From a virus, in the IMG/VR virus record IMGVR_UViG_3300021964_000615, positions 1 to 22,058 of that record: 22,058 nucleotides of DNA; one strand, given 5' to 3'. The notes under the pieces were generated by a model that did no database searches, was not told where the DNA came from, and saw only the letters and a list, made by a program, of their open reading frames with translations. Of the stretch, positions 1 through 16,968 are shown piece after piece (positions within the stretch are counted from its first letter, which is position 1; each line of letters begins with the position of its first letter). Both the position numbers and the translations under genes were made by a program.

Positions 1-3000
1 TAGTGGTGTAGATGGTTCAAGCGGAAGTAGTGGTTCATCTGGCTCATCTGGTACTTCTGGTAGAGATGGTGCTAGTGGTGAAGGTGGTACACCTGGTACT
101 TCTGGTTCAAGTGGAAGTAGTGGAAGTTCAGGTTCATCTGGCTCAAGTGGAAGTAGTGGAAGTAGTGGTTCATCTGGTTCAAGTGGAAGTAGTGGAAGTT
201 CTGGTTCATCGGGTTCTTCTGGTGTTGATGGGGCAGATGGTTTAATAGGTTCATCTGGTTCGGCGGGTTCTTCTGGTTCAAGTGGTTCATCTGGAAGTTC
301 AGGTTCAAGTGGTTCATCGGGTTCAAGCGGAACAAGCGGTACAAGTGGAACATCTGGTTCAAGTGGTTCAAGTGGAAGTAGTGGAACTGACGGTAGTGCT
401 GGTTCAAGCGGTTCATCAGGTTCATCTGGTTCAAGTGGTTCTGATGGTAATCCTGGCACCTCTGGAAGTAGTGGAAGTTCAGGTTCATCGGGCTCATCGG
501 GTTCATCGGGTTCAGATGGTTCATCTGGTAGTAGTGGAAGTAGTGGAAGTTCAGGTTCGTCTGGAAGTAGTGGAACGAGTGGAACATCTGGAACTTCTGG
601 AACATCGGGTACATCGGGTACATCTGGTTCAAGTGGGTCAAGTGGTTTACTTTCCCTAACTGGTAATACTGATAATGGTGTAATTACACTTAATGGTTCA
701 GCACCAAACGCAACGGTTGAATCAAATCTTACTTTTGATGGAACAACCCTAAACATAACAGGTAATCTGAATGTAACAGGTACTCAAACAATTGTGAATA
801 CCGAAACTATTCAGTTAGCAGATAATATTATTACTCTTAATTCAAACTTCACATCAGGTACTCCTTCGGAGAATGCTGGTATTGAAGTTTTAAGAGGTTC
901 ATCAGCAACTAAACAATTTATTTGGAATGAATCATCGGATAGATGGTACGCTGATTCACCATTACAAGTAAATGGTAGAATTTATTCAACGGATATAGAT
1001 ACTGGACAAGGTGCAACTGAGGTTTATTTAATGGACCAAAATGTTAGAAGTTCAGATTCTCCAACATTTAATAGATTAACTCTATCACAAGGAACTGGAA
1101 CGGCTCCTTTAACTGTTTCATCTACAACATTAGTATCAAACCTTAATGCTGATTTATTAGATGGTTTGCATTTACATACTGGTAGAAATAACGAAGCAAA
1201 TAAAGTAGTAAGAACCGATGGTAATGGATATGCTAACTTTGGTTGGATTAATACAACTTCGGGTAACACAACTGGTACAATTACAGATATCTATGTAAAT
1301 ACCAACGATGGATATATTAGAAAAGCAACTCCAGCTCACTTTAGAAGTCAAATATTAGATGGTACTTATACCCCATATGACCATATTCGTTCATTGGGAA
1401 CTCAAGCATTTACTAATGGTTCAAATCCAAATATAACAACTGCTCAAGTAATTTCCGAAATGGAAAGTGATGGAGCATTTGATTCATATAGTTCAGTATT
1501 TAAAACTTCTTGGAGTTATGCTGGAAATTACAATTTAACTGATGCTGGTAGATTTACTGAAACAGCAGGTTCATCTTGGATAACTTGGACTGATAATTCA
1601 TCGGATTCTACAAGAGGTAATATTACCGCATTAGCAATCGCACCAAACACTGGTGGTTCTGCCGGTAGAGTATTCATATATAATGACCAAGGTAGTAGTT
1701 ATGCACCTGGTTGGAGAGAAGTTTGGACTTCAACTTCAGATGGTGATGGTTCTGGATTAGATGCTGACCTTTGGGATGGATATCAATTCTCAGATTATTT
1801 AAATCAGGCGGTAAAAACAAATAGTACTGTAACCTTTGCTGGGTTAAATATGAACAATGGTAATATTACAAATGTAAATAATATTACAATAAATGACCCT
1901 GGACCTAATGAAGGTATTAATTGGAGTGGAGGTAATCTTTGGAAAATATATGAATCTCCTAATGATTTATCAACTAACTCAGCTGGTAATTTACAATTTG
2001 TAAGAAATAGTACAAGAGTAATGACTCTTGATACTTCGAATGATATGTTTGTTGCTTCAAATATTTACGCAACAAGATTCTACTCATCAGGTCAATCAAC
2101 ATATTACTTAGACCCAGATGGTACTTCAAACTTAAATGGATTGACTGTAAATGGTACTATTAATGGTTCTATTGATGCCGCAACAAGATTATCATCAAAT
2201 ACTGGTACTGAATCTGATAGTTTCCAATATTGGAACACAATTAATAACTCAACTTTAAATCCTGATACCAATTGGTGGTATGGGATGAGATTAGGACATG
2301 GTAACGCATCAACATATTATAGTGCAACATTAGCAATCAGTTTCTTCTCCGATGATATGAGATTTAGAAGATTACAAGCTGGTACATATCAAACATGGAG
2401 AACTATTGGACATGATGGAAATATTCCATATGCCTTTAGAATGAATCAAGATGTTCGTACAACCGATTCACCTACTTTTGCTGGATTGAATTTAGGAAAT
2501 GGTAATTTAAATACTGTTGAAAACATTTATTTAGATAACGCTATTTACAGTCAAGGTGATACGAACACTTACATGCAATTCCATGCGGCTGACCAATGGA
2601 GAGTTGTAACTGGTGGTAGTGAACGGTTGGAAGTAAACAACACAAATACAACATTAGCTACTAACTTACAAATCAACAGCCATGTTATCAATATGGATTT
2701 GAATAACATAAGTGATAATGCTATTGACCTTAGAGAAGTTCGGAGTAGTACATGGCCATTTATATTTGTATCAAACGCAGTTGGTAATGATAACGCATCT
2801 GGTTTTTGGGTAGGTAGTAATGGTTACCCTGATATGAGATTGAGAAGAGATAATAGTACAGTAAGAGCACTAATCTCATCTTGGGAAAGAAGTTATGTAA
2901 GTAATGGGTTCAGTATATCAGGTGGAACACTTGATATGAACAACAATGATATTGTTGGTGTAGACCAAATAATACATGAAGGTGATACTGATACTTACAT

Positions 3001-6000
3001 GCAGTTCCATGCATCAAACGAATGGAGAGTTGTAACTGGTGGTGGTGAAAGATTAGAAGTAAACAACACCAACACAACAGTTCAAAATAACTTAGTTGTT
3101 AATGGTTCTCTCACATTAAATGGTTCGGTTAACTTAGGTGATGATTACTCAATTGGTAAGTTTACTTATGTTTCAATTGGTGATTTGGGTGCTAGTGGAA
3201 CTCAAGCTCGTACCTTCGAAGTTGCTAGATTGGCAATGGATTACAATGATTGGAACGATGCTGGTACATTCGAAGTAGAATTGCATGAAGATTACTATGG
3301 TAGAGGTGATAGAAAAACTTATACTGTTTGGTGGGGATACAATAATGCTTGGCAAGTATATCTAACCGATAGTAGAGTTTGGGCTGATAATAGAATGCAG
3401 GTAAGAATTGGTTCTCCAGTAACTATTAGTGGTGATATCAGATATGTTCCTGTTTATGTAGATGTTAGATACTACGGACAGGTTGATGTAATGATTAAAA
3501 CCAATAAGACAGTACAATATACTGATAATACACCATCTGGCGGACAAGCTTACATTAACAAATCACCGGGTGCAACGAATATTTCAGATTTTACACCGGA
3601 TTCTGAAGTATTCCCAACAGCAAATAGTGGACAGATTGCAGTACCAAGAGTTAGATTCACATCTACTTCAGTTGGTGCATGGAATGTGATGCACTATGGT
3701 GGTGCGGTGAGTACTGGTGATTTCCAAGATTGGACAAACTCAACTGGTGAGATGAACATTATTCAGGTTAACAACTTGAACTCTGGATTCTCAAATCAAC
3801 CAACAGGTGTGTACACTTATGGTGGTGTGATGAGTTGGAGAACCGCAAACCATTCATTCCAATTATACGCAGCACACACTGGTGATTTAGCATACAAAAC
3901 TCAATGGAATAATGATAACTATTCTGGTTGGAGAAGAATCTTAGATTCTACAAACTATCCATACGCTGCGAATATGAACCAATATGTTCGTACAACTGAT
4001 AGTGTAACGTTTAACGAAATTTACAATAATGGTTGGTTTAGAAACAACCAAAGTGGTGAAGGTTTATACAACCAAGCAACTGGAGCACATTGGGTTTCAG
4101 ATGCAGATGCATCTTGGACTGCTAGAGATTCAGCATCTTCTATAAGAATTAGAATGAAAACTAATGGAAGTACCGAAAGAGGTTCTTTCTACGCAAATAG
4201 TTCTAATCAAATTGGTATTTTAGATACTGGTGGAAGTTGGGCAATTAGACACCAAAATGATTATGGTACTCAGTTCTATACTGATGGTACAACCGAAGAA
4301 TTTAGAGTTGGTAGAGATACTGTAAGTGGAAATTATGGTACAGTTGAAACCAAAACAACTAAAGGTGGTTGGGGTGGATACTCAATCAATGGTGGTTGGG
4401 TCTTTATGCATGACCATTCAAATGCCGCAGGTATCTACAATGATTATGAAAATGAGTGGGCTATCTTAATGTATAGAAACTCATATGTTAGATTACATTT
4501 TAATGGTGCGAATAAATTAGAAACTACCAATACCGGTATTAGTGTTCAAGGTGATGCTGTTGGTACTGGTACAATTGATTTCGATGGAAAATATCATATT
4601 TTAGGTACTTCATCAAATTGGGATTCAGTTGGACAAAACGCACAAACAAACCTACACTTCCAAGGACATCAGATGTTCTGGATTGGTGCGGGTAATGGTA
4701 CTTGGTTTACTGGAACAGCAAATACAAAATCACAAGCGTCTGGTTTAGCATCTGATGCAAATTACGCACATGATTTACTTCTTACAACTATGTATTCTGA
4801 TGCTAGTTACGATAGAGGTATTACATTTGCGGTATCAAACAATAACGATGAAAATAGTGGTTGGAGATTAGGTAAATGGCATAGTGGTAATGGTAGAACC
4901 ACATCTCTCTTAGCAGTAGATGGACAGATATTCGCTAAAGGTGGATATACTGATGAATATGATTACTACGCAAATGATTACTCATCTTACTACAATGATG
5001 GTAACGCTCATTGGGGTGGTGATAGTGGACAATTTAATAAACCATCAATTGTAGCATCAACTGCAATTCAGATTCAAAGTGGTAACGCTGGTACAAACTC
5101 TCGTAAACCACAAATCCAATTCCACCAATATGGATATGGTGGACCTAAGATTGAATACGATGGACCTGCTGATATCCTTAGATTCCAAGGTTCATCATCT
5201 CGATTGGATTGGGTTGAGTTTAACACTTCTGGTATTACTAATGGTTTAAGAATTAACTTTGACCAGGTTTACTCACCAGCAAGACCACTACAACTACAAT
5301 ATAGTTCAGGTCAAAACACTTACATTAATGGTGCAAGTGGTGGTAATGTGGGTATTGGGCATACAACTGCTTCACAAAGATTAGATGTAAATGGTTCGGT
5401 TATTATTAGAACTGACCTTTATATGGATAATGGTAGAATCTACGATGTAGAGGATATCTTCTTAAATGACCGGATTTACCACGATGGTGATACTAACACA
5501 TATATACAGTTCCATGCAGCTGACCAATGGAGAGTTGTAACTGGTGGTGGTGAAAGATTAGAAGTAAACAATGGTACAACTACTGTACAAAACAACTTAT
5601 ATGTAAATGGTAACCGAAACCGAATAGGTAATGGTAACGATGATAGAACTCACATCAATGATATGTTATATGTGGGTGCTACTGATAGTGGTGATTCTCA
5701 CTTCTACTTTGGTGAAGGTGGATACCACGATATTTCATATGGTGCACACTGGTATTGGGATAGTGGATACACTTGGTCTTGGTATATGAGAAATGCTGGT
5801 AGTGATACTCTAATGATGAGATACATTACCAACAATAATGCATATGTGTATTGGTATCGTCATTTCCATATGAACAATTACGATATCAATTATGTAAACC
5901 AATTACACTTTAACGCAAATGTTAGATTCTATGATGAAGGTAACGATTCTTATCTAAACTTTAAATTTGGTGATGCAAATACAGGTGGTATTAAATTCTA

Positions 6001-9000
6001 TACTGGTGGAAACACTAGAGCTGGATATCTTTATTCAGATGGAGCTGGTGCTAACTTCGGTTTATTAAATAGAGATGGACAGTGGGCAGTTAGAACAACG
6101 AATGTACAAACATCAATGTATTACGATGGTAGTGAAAAAATCTACACTCGTTCAGATGGTGTTTATGTAAATGGAAATATTTTTGCATCAAGATTCTATG
6201 ATACCAATACATCTTACTACTTAGACCCTGCATCTACTTCTTATTTAAATGATGTTAGAGTAAATATCTTATACGATAGAGAGTCTACTGGATATTATTG
6301 GCATGGTGGTTCTACTTCTCGTATGAATCAGGCTGAATTTATTGGTAGAGTTGTTATCGGTGGTAGATTTGATTACAACGCATACAACTCAGTATCATCC
6401 ACTAGATTACATTTCGGTGGAGGTAACTCTGATGCAAATGGTAACTACTATATTGGTACGAATCGGGAAAACTATGGTGGTAACTACTCTAAATTAGATT
6501 TAAGATGGCATACTGGTATCCGTATGGGTGCACAATCTGGTTATGGTGGTATCAGAATGTACAACAATGAGGATTTATCAACAATGTTATTCTCAGTTGG
6601 TAGAAGTTCTCAAGATGTTGAAGTTACTTACAACCTAAGAGTAGGTGGACAGAAAGCAATTAACTCTCGAAATATGCATGTTGGTTCATTTACCAACTTA
6701 GCAACTGCTGAAGATTGGGTAGTTCAAAATGGTTCTAATAACGCAGCATTGGGTGGTGGATTCGGACAGAATGGTGATGGTAACTCGGTACTGCAAGATT
6801 ACGACCCGTGGGGTAGACCTTCATTAGTTTGGAGAACATTAGGAAACGATACATCTTCAAACGCTGATGGTGGTTGGAACAAAGGTGTATCTAACTTAGA
6901 TGGTAATAAATCATATATGTATGTGGTTTATGTGAAGAGAGATTCTTCATCTACGAATGGTACTTACTACTTCGGTTGTAGTGGTGGTGAAACACTTAAT
7001 ATGAGTGGTTCGGCAAATGGTAACCCATATTTCCATGCATTTGGTATCGGTTCACTTCCGCAAGGAGTTTGGTGTTTGGCGATTGGATATGTGTACGCTA
7101 ACAATCACCCACAAACTTCATCTTTAGGTAGAGGTGGTGTTTGGAGATTAGATACAGGTCAGAAAATTAGTGGTTCTACTGATTATAAAATGAGATACAC
7201 TGGTACGAGAGGTCAAACTCATAGAACTTACTTGTACTACTCAACCGACCCAGCAGCTCACTTAAAATGGTGGGGACCTGGTGTATATGAAATCAATGGT
7301 AACGAACCAAACATCGAACAACTTTCTGGTAATAGAGTAAATCAGGGTAATGGTTTATGGTTCGATAACGCATCTGCTATTGTAATGCCTGCACGGAATG
7401 GTGGTACAATGAGATTAAGAACCAATACACATTGGGATTCTCAATCTGGTATCGATTACATTGGTTCAGCTGGTGAATTCAGAATGAGTTCGGATACTGG
7501 TAACTTGAACTTGAGAGTAGATGGTTGGATGTACAACTATGATGTAACTTACTCTCCTCGCTACTACGACCAGAATAGTACATCATACTACGCAGACCCT
7601 GCATCTACATCGTACTTTAACGATATGAGGGCAAATATCTACTATGATAGAGATAATACCTCATATTACGCTAACCCTGGTCAAACATCGTACTTCAATG
7701 ATATTAGAACAAATATCATTTACGATAGAGAGAATACTGCATACTACTTTGGTAGTGGACAGGGTGATGCTCGTGCAAATACAATGAGAGCGTGGAACTT
7801 CTACGCTGATGATTGGTTTAGAAACTACAACCAAAACGAAGGTCTATATAACCAATCAAGTGGTAATCACTGGTACTCATCTGGTGCATATTGGGCTATT
7901 GGTTATTCTGGTAGTGCTAAGGGTATTATTGTAAGAGATGGTTTCCAAGGTACTGTTAGGGGTTACTTCTACGCAGAAGATAACAACACTATTGGTTTAT
8001 TAGATTCAGATGGGACTTGGGCAGTAAGAGTAGTTCGTGATTCTTATGTAGAAATGCGAGATAACAACGAAGTAACCTTCAGAGTTGGACAAGGTGGTGT
8101 AGATGGTAACTATGGTACTGTTCAGACTCATGGTGGAGGTAAAGGTGGTTGGGAAGGATACTCAATTAATGGTAGATATGTGTTCATGTCAGCAGATAAT
8201 AATGGTGCTGGTATCTACAATGATATTGATAATGAGTGGATGGCTTATTTCAATAGAAATGGTAGTACCGAACTACATTGGAATGGTGCTAGACAAATGA
8301 ATACCGATTCTTATGGTATCTATGTAAGAGACCAAGTAAGAGCACAAGTTTACTATGACCACGATACTGGATACTATGGTAACTTTAACTCTACTTCTAG
8401 ATTTAATGCAACAATAACCAATACATCATACTTCGGGGTAGGTTCAAATAGAGGGTACGCACAGGGATATGGTACATACTCATCATCTTTACATAGAATA
8501 GCATACATATCCTTTGACTGGAATGCTAATTATAACTCATATACTAATCATGGTATCGCATCTACTTCTAATACTGGTGGATTCTCCGATAACATATCTA
8601 TTAACTCATATAATGATGTTAATATTAGATTAGATAGTAATAATAACAATACTAACTCTTATCTAAGAATACATGATAATGGTTCCGGTAATTCTCAGAA
8701 TGTAGCATATATTGGTAGAGAAAATGGTAATGCAATTGCATACTTCTACAATAGAGTATATGGTGCAACCTACTATGACCGGAATAATGGAAATTACTAC
8801 ACCAATCCAGCATCTACTTCTATAATGAACGAAATCCGTATAGATGCATTAATACGGCACAATGGTGATACGAATACCTACATGCAGTTCCATGCAGCTG
8901 ACCAATGGAGAGTTGTAACTGGTGGTAGTGAAAGATTAGAAGTTAATAACTCACAAATCTACGCTACTAGAGTATTTAGATGTACACAAGATGTAATTGC

Positions 9001-9433
9001 ATATTATTCTGATGAAAGATTAAAAACTAAAAAGGGTAGAATTGGAAATGCACTTTCTAAACTTCTTTCATTAGATGGTTTCTACTATGAAACTAATGAG
9101 TTAGCTAATTCAGTTGGATTTACCGAAGATGGATTACAAGTAGGTTTATCAGCACAACAGGTTAGAGATGTGATGCCTGAGGTAGTTCACTTAGCACCAT
9201 TTGATTCTGATTATGATGAAAATGGAAACCTATACTCTAAATCAGGTGAAGATTACTTAACTATCAAATACGATAGATTGGTTCCACTAATGATTGAAGG
9301 TATCAAAGACCAGCATAAATTGGTGAGTTGGAACAACTCTAAAGTGAAAGAATTAGAAGGTATTATTGAGAAACAACAAAACGAAATTGAAGAATTAAAA
9401 AACTTAGTAAAACAATTAATCAATAAAGGTTAA
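1..9433 (+). CDS. Giant tail fiber protein, 5' truncated, with collagen-like tract and C-terminal S74 self-cleaving chaperone
   Basis: The reading frame is open from base 2 to the TAA at 9431-9433 (3143 codons) and enters from outside the window, so the true start is not visible. A GTG at 794 is internal. Order of parts: 71 Gly-X-Y triplets (5-646); a fiber block with DNIITLNSN and NAGIEVLRG (about 800-900); motifs of the LDADLxDG and NQxVRTTDSPTF type (about 1025, 1140-1180, 1750-1830, 2440-2480, 3970-4010), typical of phage fibers; four GDTxTYxQFHA modules; a 169-aa duplicated module; VGIGHTTASQRLDVNGS near 5350; several YYxxPxxTSxxN repeats; and an S74 chaperone domain (9008-9433) ending in a coiled coil. 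Fibers of this kind trimerise and bind the host surface. The chaperone is normally cut off after folding. It lies upstream of sheath and tube genes, as expected for a tail module. Receptor and fold of the middle are unknown. Confidence 0.9.
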   Translation, partial: SGVDGSSGSSGSSGSSGTSGRDGASGEGGTPGTSGSSGSSGSSGSSGSSGSSGSSGSSGSSGSSGSSGSSGSSGVDGADGLIGSSGSAGSSGSSGSSGSSGSSGSSGSSGTSGTSGTSGSSGSSGSSGTDGSAGSSGSSGSSGSSGSDGNPGTSGSSGSSGSSGSSGSSGSDGSSGSSGSSGSSGSSGSSGTSGTSGTSGTSGTSGTSGSSGSSGLLSLTGNTDNGVITLNGSAPNATVESNLTFDGTTLNITGNLNVTGTQTIVNTETIQLADNIITLNSNFTSGTPSENAGIEVLRGSSATKQFIWNESSDRWYADSPLQVNGRIYSTDIDTGQGATEVYLMDQNVRSSDSPTFNRLTLSQGTGTAPLTVSSTTLVSNLNADLLDGLHLHTGRNNEANKVVRTDGNGYANFGWINTTSGNTTGTITDIYVNTNDGYIRKATPAHFRSQILDGTYTPYDHIRSLGTQAFTNGSNPNITTAQVISEMESDGAFDSYSSVFKTSWSYAGNYNLTDAGRFTETAGSSWITWTDNSSDSTRGNITALAIAPNTGGSAGRVFIYNDQGSSYAPGWREVWTSTSDGDGSGLDADLWDGYQFSDYLNQAVKTNSTVTFAGLNMNNGNITNVNNITINDPGPNEGINWSGGNLWKIYESPNDLSTNSAGNLQFVRNSTRVMTLDTSNDMFVASNIYATRFYSSGQSTYYLDPDGTSNLNGLTVNGTINGSIDAATRLSSNTGTESDSFQYWNTINNSTLNPDTNWWYGMRLGHGNASTYYSATLAISFFSDDMRFRRLQAGTYQTWRTIGHDGNIPYAFRMNQDVRTTDSPTFAGLNLGNGNLNTVENIYLDNAIYSQGDTNTYMQFHAADQWRVVTGGSERLEVNNTNTTLATNLQINSHVINMDLNNISDNAIDLREVRSSTWPFIFVSNAVGNDNASGFWVGSNGYPDMRLRRDNSTVRALISSWERSYVSNGFSISGGTLDMNNNDIVGVDQIIHEGDTDTYMQFHASNEWRVVTGGGERLEVNNTNTTVQNNLVVNGSLTLNGSVNLGDDYSIGKFTYVSIGDLGASGTQARTFEVARLAMDYNDWNDAGTFEVELHEDYYGRGDRKTYTVWWGYNNAWQVYLTDSRVWADNRMQVRIGSPVTISGDIRYVPVYVDVRYYGQVDVMIKTNKTVQYTDNTPSGGQAYINKSPGATNISDFTPDSEVFPTANSGQIAVPRVRFTSTSVGAWNVMHYGGAVSTGDFQDWTNSTGEMNIIQVNNLNSGFSNQPTGVYTYGGVMSWRTANHSFQLYAAHTGDLAYKTQWNNDNYSGWRRILDSTNYPYAANMNQYVRTTDSVTFNEIYNNGWFRNNQSGEGLYNQATGAHWVSDADASWTARDSASSIRIRMKTNGSTERGSFYANSSNQIGILDTGGSWAIRHQNDYGTQFYTDGTTEEFRVGRDTVSGNYGTVETKTTKGGWGGYSINGGWVFMHDHSNAAGIYNDYENEWAILMYRNSYVRLHFNGANKLETTNTGISVQGDAVGTGTIDFDGKYHILGTSSNWDSVGQNAQTNLHFQGHQMFWIGAGNGTWFTGTANTKSQASGLASDANYAHDLLLTTMYSDASYDRGITFAVSNNNDENSGWRLGKWHSGNGRTTSLLAVDGQIFAKGGYTDEYDYYANDYSSYYNDGNAHWGGDSGQFNKPSIVASTAIQIQSGNAGTNSRKPQIQFHQYGYGGPKIEYDGPADILRFQGSSSRLDWVEFNTSGITNGLRINFDQVYSPARPLQLQYSSGQNTYINGASGGNVGIGHTTASQRLDVNGSVIIRTDLYMDNGRIYDVEDIFLNDRIYHDGDTNTYIQFHAADQWRVVTGGGERLEVNNGTTTVQNNLYVNGNRNRIGNGNDDRTHINDMLYVGATDSGDSHFYFGEGGYHDISYGAHWYWDSGYTWSWYMRNAGSDTLMMRYITNNNAYVYWYRHFHMNNYDINYVNQLHFNANVRFYDEGNDSYLNFKFGDANTGGIKFYTGGNTRAGYLYSDGAGANFGLLNRDGQWAVRTTNVQTSMYYDGSEKIYTRSDGVYVNGNIFASRFYDTNTSYYLDPASTSYLNDVRVNILYDRESTGYYWHGGSTSRMNQAEFIGRVVIGGRFDYNAYNSVSSTRLHFGGGNSDANGNYYIGTNRENYGGNYSKLDLRWHTGIRMGAQSGYGGIRMYNNEDLSTMLFSVGRSSQDVEVTYNLRVGGQKAINSRNMHVGSFTNLATAEDWVVQNGSNNAALGGGFGQNGDGNSVLQDYDPWGRPSLVWRTLGNDTSSNADGGWNKGVSNLDGNKSYMYVVYVKRDSSSTNGTYYFGCSGGETLNMSGSANGNPYFHAFGIGSLPQGVWCLAIGYVYANNHPQTSSLGRGGVWRLDTGQKISGSTDYKMRYTGTRGQTHRTYLYYSTDPAAHLKWWGPGVYEINGNEPNIEQLSGNRVNQGNGLWFDNASAIVMPARNGGTMRLRTNTHWDSQSGIDYIGSAGEFRMSSDTGNLNLRVDGWMYNYDVTYSPRYYDQNSTSYYADPASTSYFNDMRANIYYDRDNTSYYANPGQTSYFNDIRTNIIYDRENTAYYFGSGQGDARANTMRAWNFYADDWFRNYNQNEGLYNQSSGNHWYSSGAYWAIGYSGSAKGIIVRDGFQGTVRGYFYAEDNNTIGLLDSDGTWAVRVVRDSYVEMRDNNEVTFRVGQGGVDGNYGTVQTHGGGKGGWEGYSINGRYVFMSADNNGAGIYNDIDNEWMAYFNRNGSTELHWNGARQMNTDSYGIYVRDQVRAQVYYDHDTGYYGNFNSTSRFNATITNTSYFGVGSNRGYAQGYGTYSSSLHRIAYISFDWNANYNSYTNHGIASTSNTGGFSDNISINSYNDVNIRLDSNNNNTNSYLRIHDNGSGNSQNVAYIGRENGNAIAYFYNRVYGATYYDRNNGNYYTNPASTSIMNEIRIDALIRHNGDTNTYMQFHAADQWRVVTGGSERLEVNNSQIYATRVFRCTQDVIAYYSDERLKTKKGRIGNALSKLLSLDGFYYETNELANSVGFTEDGLQVGLSAQQVRDVMPEVVHLAPFDSDYDENGNLYSKSGEDYLTIKYDRLVPLMIEGIKDQHKLVSWNNSKVKELEGIIEKQQNEIEELKNLVKQLINKG
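5..646 (+). repeat. Collagen-like Gly-X-Y tract, degenerate 9-nt tandem repeat
   Basis: Glycine codons fall every 9 bases from 5 to 644 without a break, giving 71 triplets. X-Y is mostly Ser-Ser or Thr-Ser, with occasional GRD, GAS, GEG, GTP, GVD, GAD, GLI, GTD, GSD and GNP. Proline is nearly absent (two triplets), unlike vertebrate collagen. At DNA level the unit is a degenerate GGT-TCA-TCT / GGA-AGT-AGT nonamer. Phage fibers often carry collagen-like rods, but how stable a Pro-poor version would be is unclear; a flexible or glycosylated spacer is an alternative. The tract continues leftwards out of the window. Confidence 0.9.
2555..2642 (+). repeat. Fiber GDT module, copy 1
   Basis: Encodes GDTNTYMQFHAADQWRVVTG followed by GSERLEVNN. 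It is one of four near-identical modules in the same frame of the fiber gene. This copy is the most divergent at DNA level (for example 'gaacggttggaa' where the others have 'gaaagattagaa'). Confidence 0.85.
2981..3068 (+). repeat. Fiber GDT module, copy 2
   Basis: Encodes GDTDTYMQFHASNEWRVVTG followed by GGERLEVNN. From the second half onward its DNA is almost identical to copy 3 (over 40 bases), although they lie about 2.5 kb apart. Confidence 0.85.
4034..4540 (+). repeat. Duplicated 169-aa fiber module, copy A
   Basis: Runs from WFRNNQSGEGLYNQ to the Gly-Ile before SVQGD. It shares landmarks in order with copy B: WFRN, GLYNQ, HW, FYA, IG-LD, W-A-R, FRVG, GNYGTV, KGGW-GYSING, VFM, AGIYND-ENEW, R-S---L-NGA and GI. 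Both copies are exactly 507 nt, so they align without gaps. A partial third relative (IKFYTGG...GLLNRDGQWAVR) lies near 5980-6110. Function unknown; probably a structural fiber domain. Confidence 0.8.
5486..5572 (+). repeat. Fiber GDT module, copy 3
   Basis: Encodes GDTNTYIQFHAADQWRVVTG followed by GGERLEVNN. Bases 5507-5565 match copy 4 (8885-8943) with a single difference (GGTGGT versus GGTAGT), which indicates recent duplication or gene conversion inside the gene. Confidence 0.85.
7814..8320 (+). repeat. Duplicated 169-aa fiber module, copy B
   Basis: Second copy of the module at 4034-4540, with equal length and the same order of landmarks, but diverged at many residues between them. Upstream it is preceded by YYxxPxxTSYFND repeats, whereas copy A is preceded by a VRTTDSVTF motif, so the module has been set in two different contexts. 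Confidence 0.8.
8864..8950 (+). repeat. Fiber GDT module, copy 4
   Basis: Encodes GDTNTYMQFHAADQWRVVTG followed by GSERLEVNN. It sits immediately before the C-terminal chaperone domain, so this module type marks the last fiber segment before the processing site. Confidence 0.85.
9008..9433 (+). other. S74 / endosialidase-type intramolecular chaperone domain of the fiber
   Basis: The last 141 residues begin with SDERLK, where the Ser codon is 9008-9010 and the Lys codon 9023-9025. In the endosialidase intramolecular chaperone family (Peptidase_S74) this Ser/Lys pair makes the autocatalytic cut just before the Ser. Further family features are GLSAQQVRDVMPEVV and YLTIKYDRLVPLMIEGIKDQ. The domain ends in a heptad-type coiled coil (KVKELEGIIEKQQNEIEELK), as in family members that hold the trimer during folding. 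The cleavage site is predicted after the Tyr-Tyr at 9002-9007. Confidence 0.88.
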
Positions 9434-12506: not shown

Positions 12507-12995
12507 ATGGCAGAAGTATTAGAATTTAACGAAATGTTCTTCACCAACTTCGAACCGAAGATGAAGAATCGCTATATTATGGAGATTGATGGTATTCAAT
12601 CATACTTAATCAAAACAGCGGCAAGACCATCTATCAATTTCGAAACTGTGAAGTTGGACCACATCAACACTTATAGAAAATTACAAGGTAAGGGTGAGTG
12701 GCAGGATATCACAATCACATTGTATGACCCAATTGTACCTTCAGGTGCACAACAGGTGATGGAATGGGTAAGATTGGGATATGAATCTTTAACGGGTAGA
12801 AAGGGATATGCAGATTTCTACAAAAAAGATATCGATTTCTATATGTTAGGGCCTGTTGGAGATAAAATCGAACAATGGAAACTAAAAGGAGCATTTATCC
12901 AAGCAGCTAACTTCAATGACTTAGATTTCTCATCTAATGACCCTGCCGATATTGAATTAACGCTTTCGTATGATTACGCAATATTAGAATTTTAA
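12507..12995 (+). CDS. Tail tube protein (T4 gp19-like)
   Basis: Builds the inner tube through which DNA passes. At 162 aa it is nearly the size of T4 gp19 (163 aa). Features of the gp19 family: an N-terminal NEMFFTNFEPKMKNRYIMEI strand, the KTAARPSINFETVKLDHINT segment, KLQGKGEWQDITITLYDPI, and the C-terminal strand pair with GAFIQAANFNDLDFSSNDPA and IELTLSYDYAILEF. The order sheath then tube, with a 51-nt gap containing a promoter-like palindrome, lets the tube be expressed from the sheath transcript and from its own start. It is followed by a strong terminator. Confidence 0.93.
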   Translation: MAEVLEFNEMFFTNFEPKMKNRYIMEIDGIQSYLIKTAARPSINFETVKLDHINTYRKLQGKGEWQDITITLYDPIVPSGAQQVMEWVRLGYESLTGRKGYADFYKKDIDFYMLGPVGDKIEQWKLKGAFIQAANFNDLDFSSNDPADIELTLSYDYAILEF

Positions 12996-13111: not shown

Positions 13112-13885
13112 ATGAGCGAAAATAAATTCGAATTCCCAACTGAGGTAGTGGATTTACCATCAAAGGGATTAGTTTATCCAGAAGGACATCCTTTAAGAAA
13201 AGGAAATATTGAGATTAAATATATGACAGCAAGAGAAGAAGATATTCTTGCATCTCAATCTTTAATCAAAAAGGGTGTAGTATTAGATAGATTATTTGAA
13301 TCAGTTGTTGTAGAACGTGATGTTGACATCAATGATATCTTCATTGGTGATAAAAACGCTATTCTATTAGCAACCAGAGTAATGGGTTATGGGGCTGATT
13401 ATCAAGTAGAAGTAACTGACCCCTCTACATTAGAACCACAAAAAGTAACTATTGATTTATCTAAAGTAAAAACCAAAGATTTTAATGAAGAAATCTTAAA
13501 TGGTGATAACTTATATAAATTTACCTTACCTAAGAGTGGAACTGAATTAGAATTCAAACTTCTTACACATGGTGATGAATTAGAAATCACAAAAGAAAAT
13601 CAAGCATTGGCTAGATTGTACAAAGGAAAGGGTGATACATCCTTTGATGTAACTACTCGTTTGAAATTTATGATTCAATCAGTAGATGGTAACCAAGATA
13701 GAGGATACATCACTAAATGGGTTCAAAACTCATTCTTAGCATTAGACACAAAAGCATTTAGAAAATTTGTAAGAGAGTTAAGTCCGGATATGGATTTAAC
13801 ATTTAACTTTGTTTCAGAGTTGACGGGAGAAGAGGAGGCTCTCGATATCCCGTTTGGGGTATCGTTTTTTTACCCTTCCGAATGA
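13112..13885 (+). CDS. Baseplate / tail assembly protein, T4 gp26-like; 0-frame product of a candidate frameshift pair
   Basis: The N-terminus FPTEVVDLPSKGLVYPEGHP followed by IEIKYMTAREEDILASQSLIKKG (about residues 8-52) is the signature of the T4 gp26 baseplate family. The protein has 257 aa (T4 gp26 is 208). T4 gp26 is needed for baseplate hub assembly. The position between tube and tape measure is where other tailed phages encode tail assembly chaperones with a frameshift. The last codons run through seven T's (13865-13871) and stop at TGA 13883-13885, while the +1 frame continues into the next reading frame for 64 codons past this stop. It forms its own transcription unit, with a terminator before and after it. 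The assembly role is family-based; the chaperone analogy is inference. Confidence 0.8.
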   Translation: MSENKFEFPTEVVDLPSKGLVYPEGHPLRKGNIEIKYMTAREEDILASQSLIKKGVVLDRLFESVVVERDVDINDIFIGDKNAILLATRVMGYGADYQVEVTDPSTLEPQKVTIDLSKVKTKDFNEEILNGDNLYKFTLPKSGTELEFKLLTHGDELEITKENQALARLYKGKGDTSFDVTTRLKFMIQSVDGNQDRGYITKWVQNSFLALDTKAFRKFVRELSPDMDLTFNFVSELTGEEEALDIPFGVSFFYPSE

Positions 13886-14078
13886 TTATAGTATCCAACT
13901 TCATAACCAAATTTGGGAGTTGGTTAACTTTGGTAATGGATTTACTTGGAGAGATGTTTACTTCATGCCAATCCAATGGAGAAAGTTTTACTTTAAGAAG
14001 TTAGTTGACTTAAAAAAGAAAGAAGCAGACGAATACAAAAAAGCAGAACGTAAATCAAAAGTAAGGGTTAGTAAATAA
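13854..14078 (+). CDS. Overlapping +1-frame extension, gp51-like / second part of tail assembly frameshift product
   Basis: This 74-codon frame overlaps the 3' end of the gp26-like gene by 32 bases. Its only upstream start is a TTG at 13854 without a well-placed Shine-Dalgarno (AGGAGG at 13833-13838 is 15 nt away), and the first ATG (13965) would leave only 38 codons. A +1 slip on the T7 run joins the two frames as ...GVSFF-TLPNDYSIQLHNQIWELV..., giving about 321 aa. The sequence has an aromatic helix block (WRDVYFMPIQWRKFYFKKLVDLKKKEADE) like those in short proteins that follow tail assembly chaperones and in small gp51-like proteins. The tail is Lys-rich. A homopolymer sequencing error, which would make one continuous gene, is the main alternative. 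Confidence 0.7.
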   Translation: MGYRFFTLPNDYSIQLHNQIWELVNFGNGFTWRDVYFMPIQWRKFYFKKLVDLKKKEADEYKKAERKSKVRVSK

Positions 14079-14094
14079 TCCTTACTTTTTTTTT
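14060..14094 (+). terminator. Rho-independent terminator overlapping a stop codon
   Basis: Stem AGTAAGGGTTA (14060-14070), loop GTAAA, stem TAATCCTTACT (14076-14086), 11 bp with one G-U pair, then a run of nine T's (14086-14094). The stop TAA (14076-14078) of the +1-frame product is part of the stem, so ribosomes that finish the long product would cover the hairpin while those stopping at 13885 would not. Confidence 0.88.
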
Positions 14095-14358: not shown

Positions 14359-16968
14359 ATGGCTGAAGATTTAAGAGGTAGGTTAGAAATACTGAAAGAG
14401 ATTGAAAAAGCTGAAGCTCGTATTGATAGAGCTAGGCAATCTACTGTCTTAACTCAAGCAAAAATTAACAAATATGTAGATGACCAAAAGAAACAGGTTG
14501 TACAATTAGGTAGAGAATTAAAACAAGTTAATTTAGATAGATTAAAAGGATTTGCATCAGAAGAATCTTCACTAAAATCAATAGGTTCTATCTATGAAGA
14601 TTTAATTAAAAAGGATAGTGCAAGATTACTAGCACAGGTTAAAGCAACTGGGTTAAGTGCTCCTCAAGAAGCAGCTATGAGTAGAATGGCTGAAATTAAT
14701 AGAGATTTAGCTCAATTAGGTAGAGATGATATTGCTCAACAAGCTGCATTGTTAAAAGAGTATGATATGCAATCAGAAATATTGGGTGATATTTCTGCAG
14801 AAAATCAACATATTGTTGATAATTTAACACAACAAAATCAATTAGCTCAAACCCATTCTCAACTTACAAGCAAACAAAAGGATTTTTTACAAAAACAAAA
14901 AAATGTATATGATGGTATCAAAGATACCATTGGTGGAATCTTAGAAACCGCATCATTACTCACATCAACTGTTGGTGGAGTATTAGGTGGTGCACTTATT
15001 GGAGCTGGTGTTGCTGGTAAAGCATTGCTAAGTACGATGAAAGAATTGGGTGGTTCAATTGGAACTACCAATACAATAGCTACTACTTTATTTAGTAAAG
15101 TATTTCCAGATGCAGTTGGTACAGTTAAAGGATTATCAAGTGAATTTGGTGGATTAGCAGACGTATCCTTAAAAACACAATTCAGAACCAATGTATTAGC
15201 TAAGAACTTAGGAATTAGTGCTGGTGAAGCAGCATCTTTGACTGGTTCATTTGCTCGTTTAAATGATGGTTCAGCAGAAACTGCTCAAAACTTAATAGAA
15301 TCAACAAAGAATTTAGCACAAGCAAATGGATTAGTTCCAAATCAAATAATGGCAGATGTAGCTAACTCAGCTGAAGAATTTGCATTGTTTGGGAAAGATG
15401 GTGGAAAAAATATAGCTGAAGCAGCCATTGCTGCTGGTAAGTTGGGTGTTTCCATGTCTAAGATTAGTGGAGTAGCTGATAATCTATTAGATTTTGAATC
15501 ATCGATAAATGCCGAATTAGAGTTGGGTGCAATGTTAGGTAAGAATATCAATTTAGATAGAGCCAGAGCATTAGCATATGAAGGGGATATAGGTGGTTCA
15601 GTAAGAGAAACACTTTCAGCATTGGGTGGTATTGAAGAGTTCAATAAAATGGATTACTTCCAAAAGAAACAAACCGCAGCATTATTAGGTGTATCCGTTT
15701 CAGAATTCCAAAAAATGGCAGAAAATGCTGATAAGCTGGATAAAAATGGAGAATTAACTTTATCTACCTATGATAATTTAAAAAATACTGCTAAAGCATT
15801 TGGTTCACAAATTATGAGTGGTGTACAAGGTTTAGGTAGTATGGCTGTTGCCGCTGGACAAATGGGATTTAATTTGAAGGATGGTTTAAAATCCATGAAA
15901 GGAATGGGTGGGTTAACCGAAAAACTTAAAGGATTATTCGGTAAAGATGCACTTTCAAAAGCTAGAAAGAGTGGATTATCCGATAAACAAATAGGAGCTG
16001 GTTTTGGTGGTAAAAAAGCTAAAGATGCTTTATCTGGAAAAGCCGCAAAAATGGCACCCAATACTTCGGTTTCCGATAACTTAAATAAAACCGCAGGTTC
16101 AAAAGGACCAAAAGCTAGTAACCTACTAAAAGGCGCAGCTGCAATTCTTATTTTAGCTGCAGCATTATTCGTTGCTGCTAAAGCTTTCCAAGAATTTGGT
16201 GATGTAGAATGGCCGGCAGTTGCATTGGGTTTAGGTGGTTTAGCTGGTTTAGCTGCAATTGCATATGTATTAGGAAAAGCTCAAGGTGAAATGATTAAGG
16301 GTGCAATTGCTGTGGCTATCTTAGGAGCCGCACTTATTCCATTTGCATTCTCAATGAGTTTAATTGCTGGATTAGATATAGGTTCGGTAATGGCAGCTGC
16401 AGCTGGATTAGTAATTTTCTCAGCTGCAATCTTTGGATTAGGAGCATTAATGATGACTGGAGTGGGTGCATTTATATTCGGAGCTGGTTTAGCGGCATTA
16501 GCTGGATTAGGTGTATCAATGATGGTGTTGGGTGCTGGATTATTAGTAGCAGCAGCTGGATTCCAAGCAATTGGAGGTTCGATGGGAAGTGTAGTATCAC
16601 TCATATCTCAGGTTAAGGATGTGTTGGGTGGTATGTTCCAATACATCGCACCTATTGCCGCATTAGCATTAGGATTAGTTGGATTGGCTGGTGCATTAAC
16701 ATTGGTTGGTGTAGCTGGTATCGCTGCTCTACCAGGTCTAATGGCTGTTGCTGCTATTGGTACAATAGCTATGGGAGTTGGTTCTTTATTAGGAATTGGT
16801 GGAGATGAAGGTGGAGCTGGTGGAGATTCTGATTTAATAACTGAAATCAGAGGATTAAGAGAAGATTTAAATTCTGGTAAAGTAGCAGTTTATTTAGATG
16901 GACAGAAAGTAACCTCTGGAGTTAGTAAAGTAGTAAGTAGAGTAGGAAGTAATTCATACGCAACATAA
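14359..16968 (+). CDS. Tail tape measure protein
   Basis: Sets tail length and occupies the tube lumen. At 869 aa it is the longest gene of the operon. Layout: Gln/Lys-rich coiled-coil N-terminus (residues 1-190); a Gly/Ala hydrophobic segment (about 195-225); a soluble middle with the Ala-rich GKNIAEAAIAAGKLGVSMSK region (about 230-480); a basic Gly-rich linker (about 520-585); a block of several predicted membrane-type helices (about 590-815); and a short C-terminal domain (LITEIRGLREDLNSGKVAVY-LDGQKVTSGVSKVV) typical of tape measures. With the usual rule of about 0.15 nm per residue, the tail would be near 130 nm, an estimate only. T4 gp29 has the same role. Position after the tail assembly genes and before baseplate genes supports the call. 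The start has no Shine-Dalgarno. Confidence 0.88.
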   Translation: MAEDLRGRLEILKEIEKAEARIDRARQSTVLTQAKINKYVDDQKKQVVQLGRELKQVNLDRLKGFASEESSLKSIGSIYEDLIKKDSARLLAQVKATGLSAPQEAAMSRMAEINRDLAQLGRDDIAQQAALLKEYDMQSEILGDISAENQHIVDNLTQQNQLAQTHSQLTSKQKDFLQKQKNVYDGIKDTIGGILETASLLTSTVGGVLGGALIGAGVAGKALLSTMKELGGSIGTTNTIATTLFSKVFPDAVGTVKGLSSEFGGLADVSLKTQFRTNVLAKNLGISAGEAASLTGSFARLNDGSAETAQNLIESTKNLAQANGLVPNQIMADVANSAEEFALFGKDGGKNIAEAAIAAGKLGVSMSKISGVADNLLDFESSINAELELGAMLGKNINLDRARALAYEGDIGGSVRETLSALGGIEEFNKMDYFQKKQTAALLGVSVSEFQKMAENADKLDKNGELTLSTYDNLKNTAKAFGSQIMSGVQGLGSMAVAAGQMGFNLKDGLKSMKGMGGLTEKLKGLFGKDALSKARKSGLSDKQIGAGFGGKKAKDALSGKAAKMAPNTSVSDNLNKTAGSKGPKASNLLKGAAAILILAAALFVAAKAFQEFGDVEWPAVALGLGGLAGLAAIAYVLGKAQGEMIKGAIAVAILGAALIPFAFSMSLIAGLDIGSVMAAAAGLVIFSAAIFGLGALMMTGVGAFIFGAGLAALAGLGVSMMVLGAGLLVAAAGFQAIGGSMGSVVSLISQVKDVLGGMFQYIAPIAALALGLVGLAGALTLVGVAGIAALPGLMAVAAIGTIAMGVGSLLGIGGDEGGAGGDSDLITEIRGLREDLNSGKVAVYLDGQKVTSGVSKVVSRVGSNSYAT

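Follow-up and report, generated by a model that had tools for sequence, protein, structure and literature searches.

The window analyzed here is the whole of a 22,058-base virus record (IMGVR_UViG_3300021964_000615). It carries a T4-like tail module in which sheath and tube genes are followed by ORF1, a small ORF, a tape-measure-like ORF, and later a baseplate gene of the gp53/LysM type (Table 1). ORF1 sits between the tail tube and tape-measure-like genes, as chaperones of the G/GT type do. The tape-measure-like ORF gave no significant match of its own in the family searches used for ORF1; the corresponding ORF position in Flavobacterium phage immuto is annotated as tail tape measure. The terminator-like hairpin at the end of ORF2 suggests that the chaperone gene may end its transcript before the tape-measure gene. 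At the other end of the window, positions 2–9433 hold a very long, open-ended, fiber-like ORF (≥3143 aa) that begins with SGSSG-type repeats. Its C-terminal "SDERLKTK" stretch may resemble an intramolecular chaperone domain.

Table 1. Features of the chaperone locus and its neighbors in the window.
Feature	Position	Strand	Basis
Tail tube protein (gp19-like), upstream neighbor of ORF1	12507..12995	+	ORF list and family searches
ORF1, short form, 257 aa; gp26-like/PF12322 putative tail assembly chaperone (TAC-N)	13112..13885	+	family matches, model
9-bp hairpin abutting the T run; candidate stimulator on the 5' side	13843..13864	+	terminator scan and family-wide upstream stability
Slip site TTT TTT T	13865..13871	+	sequence, conservation
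ORF2, +1-frame extension, 68 aa and stop; TAC-C/T-like domain	13872..14078	+	selection, profiles
0-frame stop TGA, end of the short form	13883..13885	+	sequence
Terminator-like hairpin and T run overlapping the ORF2 end	14057..14089	+	consensus match only
Tape-measure-like protein, 869 aa, downstream	14359..16968	+	length and synteny with Flavobacterium phage immuto

ORF1 matched PF12322 at E = 2e-7 (31.3 bits, cutoff 24.5) and phrog_150, a "baseplate hub" family, at E = 1.4e-10 over residues 4–253, while a PDB sequence search gave no match. The predicted structure of the short form (pLDDT 89, 37 sequences) was aligned with 845 PDB chains. The top match was the HK97 tail assembly chaperone 2ob9 (Z 5.1 over 90 residues, rmsd 4.6; the runner-up had Z 4.3), a modest match whose score may reflect only a common arrangement, in a structure search that possibly missed other folds. 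Taken alone, this resemblance weakly suggests a chaperone function, with which it fits. Among predicted viral proteins resembling the short-form model, the named ones were mostly T4-like baseplate hub proteins.

In the 0 frame, the junction reads TCG TTT TTT TAC CCT TCC GAA TGA, and ORF1 comprises 257 codons and the TGA. As had been predicted from the sequence, a run of seven T's is followed 12 nt on by the TGA, and the +1 frame, open at 13824–14075 with its stop at 14076–14078, crosses the run and encodes 68 more residues after the slip; the joined product would have 253 + 68 = 321 aa. The second frame also lacks a good start, the sole one upstream of the slip in the window's ORF list being the TTG at 13854. 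Apart from the slip site, the only plus-strand TTTTTTT in the window belongs to a longer T run at 14086, past the ORF2 stop.

An IMG/VR scan gave 78 near relatives of 83–100% identity, three of which run off the contig. In all 75 that reach the junction, TTTTTTTACCC, the stop distance, and the +1 offset are kept. The comparison proposed in the original prediction thus found the overlap, the T run, and the frame offset conserved, and its counter-scenario of six T's in one continuous gene fails, as all 75 relatives have seven. Across 43 distinct alleles, codons 252–255 (F F Y P) were free of synonymous change; elsewhere in ORF1 of these alleles, 219 of the 590 Phe codons were TTC and 84 of the 357 Tyr codons were TAC. 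In six near relatives (L029, L030, and L072–L075), a +1-frame stop lies 2 nt upstream of the T run, and an upstream start therefore cannot serve ORF2 there.

The same alleles were informative about the extension. Past the overlap, pN/pS of ORF2 was 0.164 in the +1 frame, versus 1.34 and 1.66 in the other frames, and was about equal to that of ORF1 (0.154). Of the three reading frames of ORF2, only the +1 frame shows purifying selection.

We extended the comparison to a family set of 265 listed loci, drawn from named records, near relatives, and three further scans, two of which contributed their best 80 each; 259 loci reach the junction and six run off. Among these 259, we counted 247 loci of a +1 class, 10 of a -1 class, and 2 with an own start. 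The final classes were set from the slip sequences: an automatic rule had given 238 +1, 10 -1, and 11 neither (9 of the 11 ending at the contig's end), and L207 and L217, called -1 by length only, were moved to +1, and L175 and L187, called +1 by the rule, to the -1 clade. The +1 class includes Flavobacterium phage immuto, Microcystis phage Mel-JY01, Bacillus phage SP-15, Listeria phage LIS04, Streptococcus phage vB_SagM-GXN1, and the uncultured LR756508. For 188 of the 189 distinct +1-class loci, extension profiles made from one half of the set gave their best score in the +1 frame when applied to the other half (187 at E < 1e-3, Z 1000). The exception in this cross-validated test was Rhodothermus phage RM378 (L087 2998–3877), which has T7 and an open +1 frame but whose +1 extension was not recognized by profiles of +1-class extensions. 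The records of immuto (L080), SP-15 (L084), and LIS04 (L086) leave the extension without annotation. For deposited genomes, the +1 extension supplies a missing protein end.

The slip codon and the next base, here separated by an underscore, read YTT_T in 187 of the 192 distinct +1 junctions listed (TTT_T 164, CTT_T 23); the others read CTA_T (2), TTT_C (2), and TTT_A (1), and the CTA_T and TTT_A sites do not fit YUU_U. As a control, other Phe-Phe and Phe-Leu dipeptides of the same loci read YTT_T in 20 of 1088 cases, counted in stop-to-stop ORFs of at least 150 codons with gene status unchecked and loci redundant. Leu codons at the slip were CTT (23) or CTA (2) and never TTA or TTG; TTA is the commonest Leu codon in the same genes (230/527). 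Among 121 +1-class representatives (<80% identity over 90 nt), 22 have a site other than T7: 14 TTTCTTT, 3 TTCTTTT, and 5 others. The TTTCTTT loci are not one clade, their common ancestor spanning 167 of 181 tree tips. On this sequence evidence, the same putative slip site recurs across a large and diverse group of T4-related phages.

These variants also bear on the direction of the shift, which the original prediction had given as "+1 (or -2)." Moving two bases back at the T run would reach the same frame and is permitted by the U run at T7 loci, and a -2 shift is known in phage Mu (excerpt of a review, PMC5009743). However, UUU-CUU-U, UUC-UUU-U, and UUC-CUU-U fail to re-pair two bases back, with pairing judged by rule, and do re-pair one base forward. 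A +1 shift is therefore favored, and the -2 part of the prediction is dropped as highly improbable.

The surroundings of the site constrain where the second frame can be entered. In 60 of 191 junctions, the stretch from the last +1 stop to the slip contains no ATG, GTG, or TTG, and in 30 of these 191 none occurs anywhere from that stop up to +66 nt. In 54 of 191, a +1 stop falls within 10 nt upstream of the slip, and in 20 the closest such stop ends 2 nt before the site; the 0-frame stop of the +1 junctions comes 15–30 nt after the first base of the slip site. With +1 stops near upstream and the 0-frame stop near downstream, the shift must occur in the short stretch between. Against the linkage of the two frames, some +1-frame ATG, GTG, or TTG is found upstream of the slip in 131 of 191 junctions, and in 81 a +1-frame start codon at offset -11 overlies an NTT-GGN codon pair. 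ORF2 could then be a separate gene, started at the TTG that exists at 13854 or by coupling to the ORF1 stop, and two relatives (L258 and L263) indeed carry an own ATG. The 30 junctions devoid of any start codon up to +66 nt and the 20 with a stop 2 nt before the slip argue against a separate gene, however, as does conservation that centers on the slip codons, and we regard an independent start as having very little probability. Nor is a separate start conserved among relatives, a scenario the original prediction had raised: an ATG just after the stop occurs in only 2 of the 259 loci listed.

The nucleotides preceding the slip unexpectedly showed an excess of RNA structure. In the 121 representatives, the 27 nt before the slip had a mean z of -0.95 against synonymous recodings, versus -0.11 ± 0.12 in 52 windows further upstream, and a z of -0.56 against GC-matched recodings, versus a background of -0.14 ± 0.07. 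With GC matching, T7 sites (z -0.48 ± 0.10) and non-T7 sites (-0.64 ± 0.20) were alike; in the -1 clade, the upstream signal was not clear (z -0.15 ± 0.25, n = 10; -0.45 with pooled codon usage). Of the 121 representatives, 92 fold at -4 kcal/mol or lower within 30 nt, and in 65 of these 92 the stem ends 0–4 nt from the slip. Among the nine stem pairs of the window, only -18/-5 covaried clearly across the representatives, in statistics that ignore relatedness. Pair -16/-7 covaried for Watson–Crick pairs only (p = 0.0035, and p = 0.28 with G–U allowed, relatedness again ignored), and no covariation across the representatives was seen for -14/-9, -15/-8, -17/-6, -19/-4, -20/-3, -21/-2, and -22/-1. 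With few pairs covarying, the exact stem appears to differ between lineages. In yeast, a hairpin located 5' of a +1 site increased shifting, with an effect on -1 sites that depended on closeness (excerpt of PMC3639245), and the 5' hairpin is a plausible stimulator of the slip.

On the 3' side, the window was no more stable than shuffles (z 0.04), and eight loci gave z values from -2.9 to +1.6 (the L194 stretch included the slip). Across the 121 representatives, a downstream excess appeared against synonymous controls in the 36 nt from slip+7 (z -1.14) and with GC matching in the 27 nt from slip+13 (z -0.60). As the synonymous control ignores the overlapping 0 frame, we do not claim a downstream stimulatory structure.

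A hairpin flush with a T run also resembles an intrinsic terminator, and the RNA polymerase might itself slip there: the hairpin and U7 would make it drop one U, and part of the mRNA would already be +1-joined and be translated in the ordinary way. A hairpin-dependent one-base deletion has been described in a Roseiflexus IS element, but the same excerpt of the review describes high-efficiency cases at runs of 9 (PMC5009743). Against slippage, too, the 22 representatives without T7 keep the frame offset and a similar hairpin signal, and the TTTCTTT loci are spread over more than one clade. Variant sites without a long homopolymer make polymerase slippage unlikely as a general mechanism, and we consider this explanation improbable, though less so than a -2 shift or a separate gene.

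Relatives outside the +1 class were consistent with ribosomal frameshifting. Ten loci forming one clade (support 1.0) have T_TTT_TTC at the junction and their extension in the -1 frame, and the +1-extension profile matched all ten (E from 1e-6 to 5e-16, 19 targets). In this clade, slip sequence and frame change together, as is expected of a programmed shift. The window's own extension is in the +1 frame and is not a -1 form; the X_XXY_YYZ -1 form is that of the separate 10-locus clade. L258 and L263, which make up another clade (support 1.0), have an in-frame ATG for the extension just after the ORF1 stop, and their extensions matched the +1-extension profile at E = 1e-27. In this clade, a separate start appears to have taken the place of the frameshift, and the own ATG implies that linkage is not strictly necessary.

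Eleven further named phages (BUCT-ZZ01, S-SM1, Syn10, S-B68, HTVC008M, Aeromonas 65.2, RHph_N34, BSP101, K445, Atu_ph07, and PA5oct) have an open -1 frame that crosses the stop and continues for 160 nt or more. In nine of the eleven, the slip sequence is T TTT TT followed by C, T, or G; in Vibrio K445 (L287) and Salmonella BSP101 (L286), the open -1 frame crosses the stop without a T6 slippery run. The -1 extension region of S-SM1 (L282 1511–1693) is annotated as a separate "gp51."

The T4 proteins gp26 (208 aa) and gp51 (249 aa), whose genes lie on opposite strands, both match PF12322 along its length, which makes them paralogues, and gp51 runs on beyond the match. A T4-type gp51 model (pLDDT 83, six sequences) has a helical C-terminus. 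A profile of five cyanophage and pelagiphage -1 extensions matched the C-terminus of a gp51 homologue at E = 8e-8 and a +1 extension at E = 5e-5, whereas the best shuffle among the 683 targets reached only 0.057. Direct comparisons of gp51 with the +1 extension were not significant: the isolated gp51 C-terminus gave E = 0.036 against the +1-extension profile (19 targets), hhalign against gp51 gave a probability of 60.7% with the entire joined proteins and 0.8% with just the extension, and an hmmsearch with the SP-15 and RM378 extensions among its targets reached E = 0.46 at best. Direct homology of the +1 extension with gp51 residues ~208–249 is therefore not claimed, the cyanophage bridge being the only significant connection. 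The "gp51-like" label that the original prediction gave to ORF2 is accordingly supported only indirectly, through the cyanophage -1 extensions.

The reach of this bridge was limited. A profile of the 11 named -1 extensions missed the 10-locus -1 clade (best E 0.75), and a relatives scan with the cyanophage protein yielded none that was confirmed. A combined family profile clearly matched 4 of the 11 named -1 extensions (HTVC008M, Syn10, S-SM1, and BUCT-ZZ01), was weak on Atu_ph07 and PA5oct (E about 0.002), and left the other five unmatched. We thus see a partial bridge that appears to connect gp51-type C-termini with +1 extensions. On this view, the two chaperone forms would be old, with T4 probably producing each from a gene of its own.

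A programmed shift in a gp26-like tail assembly gene, as originally predicted, remains the best reading, supported by the conserved site, the frame, and selection. The gene very probably makes its tail assembly chaperone in a short and a long form by a +1 slip at the conserved T run. Most ribosomes would end at 13883 and release the short TAC-N. Some would slip +1 with, probably, the second Phe codon of UUU-UUU-U in the P site: the peptidyl-tRNA-Phe would step from 13868–13870 to 13869–13871 and re-pair on the overlapping UUU, and the ribosome would then read ACC CUU and onward into the 321-aa long form with its added C-terminal domain. Once the ribosome has passed, the hairpin would re-form in its wake, directly next to the slip site, and probably push the ribosome forward. 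If the pair works like lambda gpG/gpGT, the tape measure would be coated by the short form, and tube protein would be recruited by the long form, the rarer of the two. The conserved shift site, its frame, the starts missing in many relatives, the purifying selection, and the hairpin excess are directly supported; production of both forms, their ratio, the exact codon that slips, the role of the hairpin, and the chaperone function we infer.

As a wider and decidedly tentative proposal, which we think may well be wrong, re-folding of a hairpin at the exit side of the ribosome, and not a rare codon or a Shine–Dalgarno element, might drive the YUU_U +1 slip as a natural class across a large T4-related branch. 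The T4 chaperone family might then have switched among a +1 slip, a -1 slip, an independent start (L258/L263), and a duplicated gene (T4 gp26/gp51), keeping both protein forms throughout. The natural variants (T7, CUU_U, UUC-UUU_U, the -1 heptamer, an own start, and strong or weak hairpins) are a ready set for tests of what sets shift direction and of whether bacterial +1 shifts can be driven by a 5' hairpin.

Tail chaperone genes are well known to use frameshifts, which are -1, -2, or +1 in different phages, with T4 named as the exception (excerpt of PMC5009743); the same excerpt holds a +1 shift in the tail chaperone of the archaeal virus HSTV-2 to be very likely. An excerpt of a 2025 paper describes a -1 shift in Vandenendeviridae and refers to known poly-T -1 signals in "TAC-N genes of T4-like phages," with Vladimirov et al. 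(2022) as its source. The view that no case was established for T4-like gp26 thus needs amending for -1 signals. No report of a +1 site in the gp26/gp51 family was found in the search listings and paper excerpts covered, where Vladimirov et al. (2022) figures only as a reference. A tail-chaperone frameshift as such is known, then, and the +1 YUU_U site in the gp26/gp51 family appears to be new: it is clean and widely conserved, though the excerpted review treats T4 as the exception (PMC5009743).

Among related systems, the -1 extensions of the cyanophages, HTVC008M, PA5oct, Atu_ph07, and Aeromonas 65.2 belong to the same family and extend across the stop like the window gene, from which they differ by frame (-1 versus +1). 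T4 gp26 and gp51 match PF12322 and phrog_150, as ORF1 does, but T4 has two genes where the window has one gene and a shift, which suggests alternative routes to the same two forms. Lambda gpG/gpGT shares the place before the tape measure, the short and C-terminally extended forms, and a shift just before the 0-frame stop; the lambda shift is -1, whereas that of the window would be +1 at YUU_U with a 5' hairpin. CUU_U and UUU are named as slippery +1 codons in an excerpt of PMC10885494. The chaperone family, which sometimes has CUU_UGG, resembles prfB in the predicted re-pairing of YUU_U to UUU. The prfB (RF2) +1 frameshift site is CUU_UGA and uses the stop codon and a close Shine–Dalgarno element, whereas the chaperone family would use a sense codon and a hairpin.
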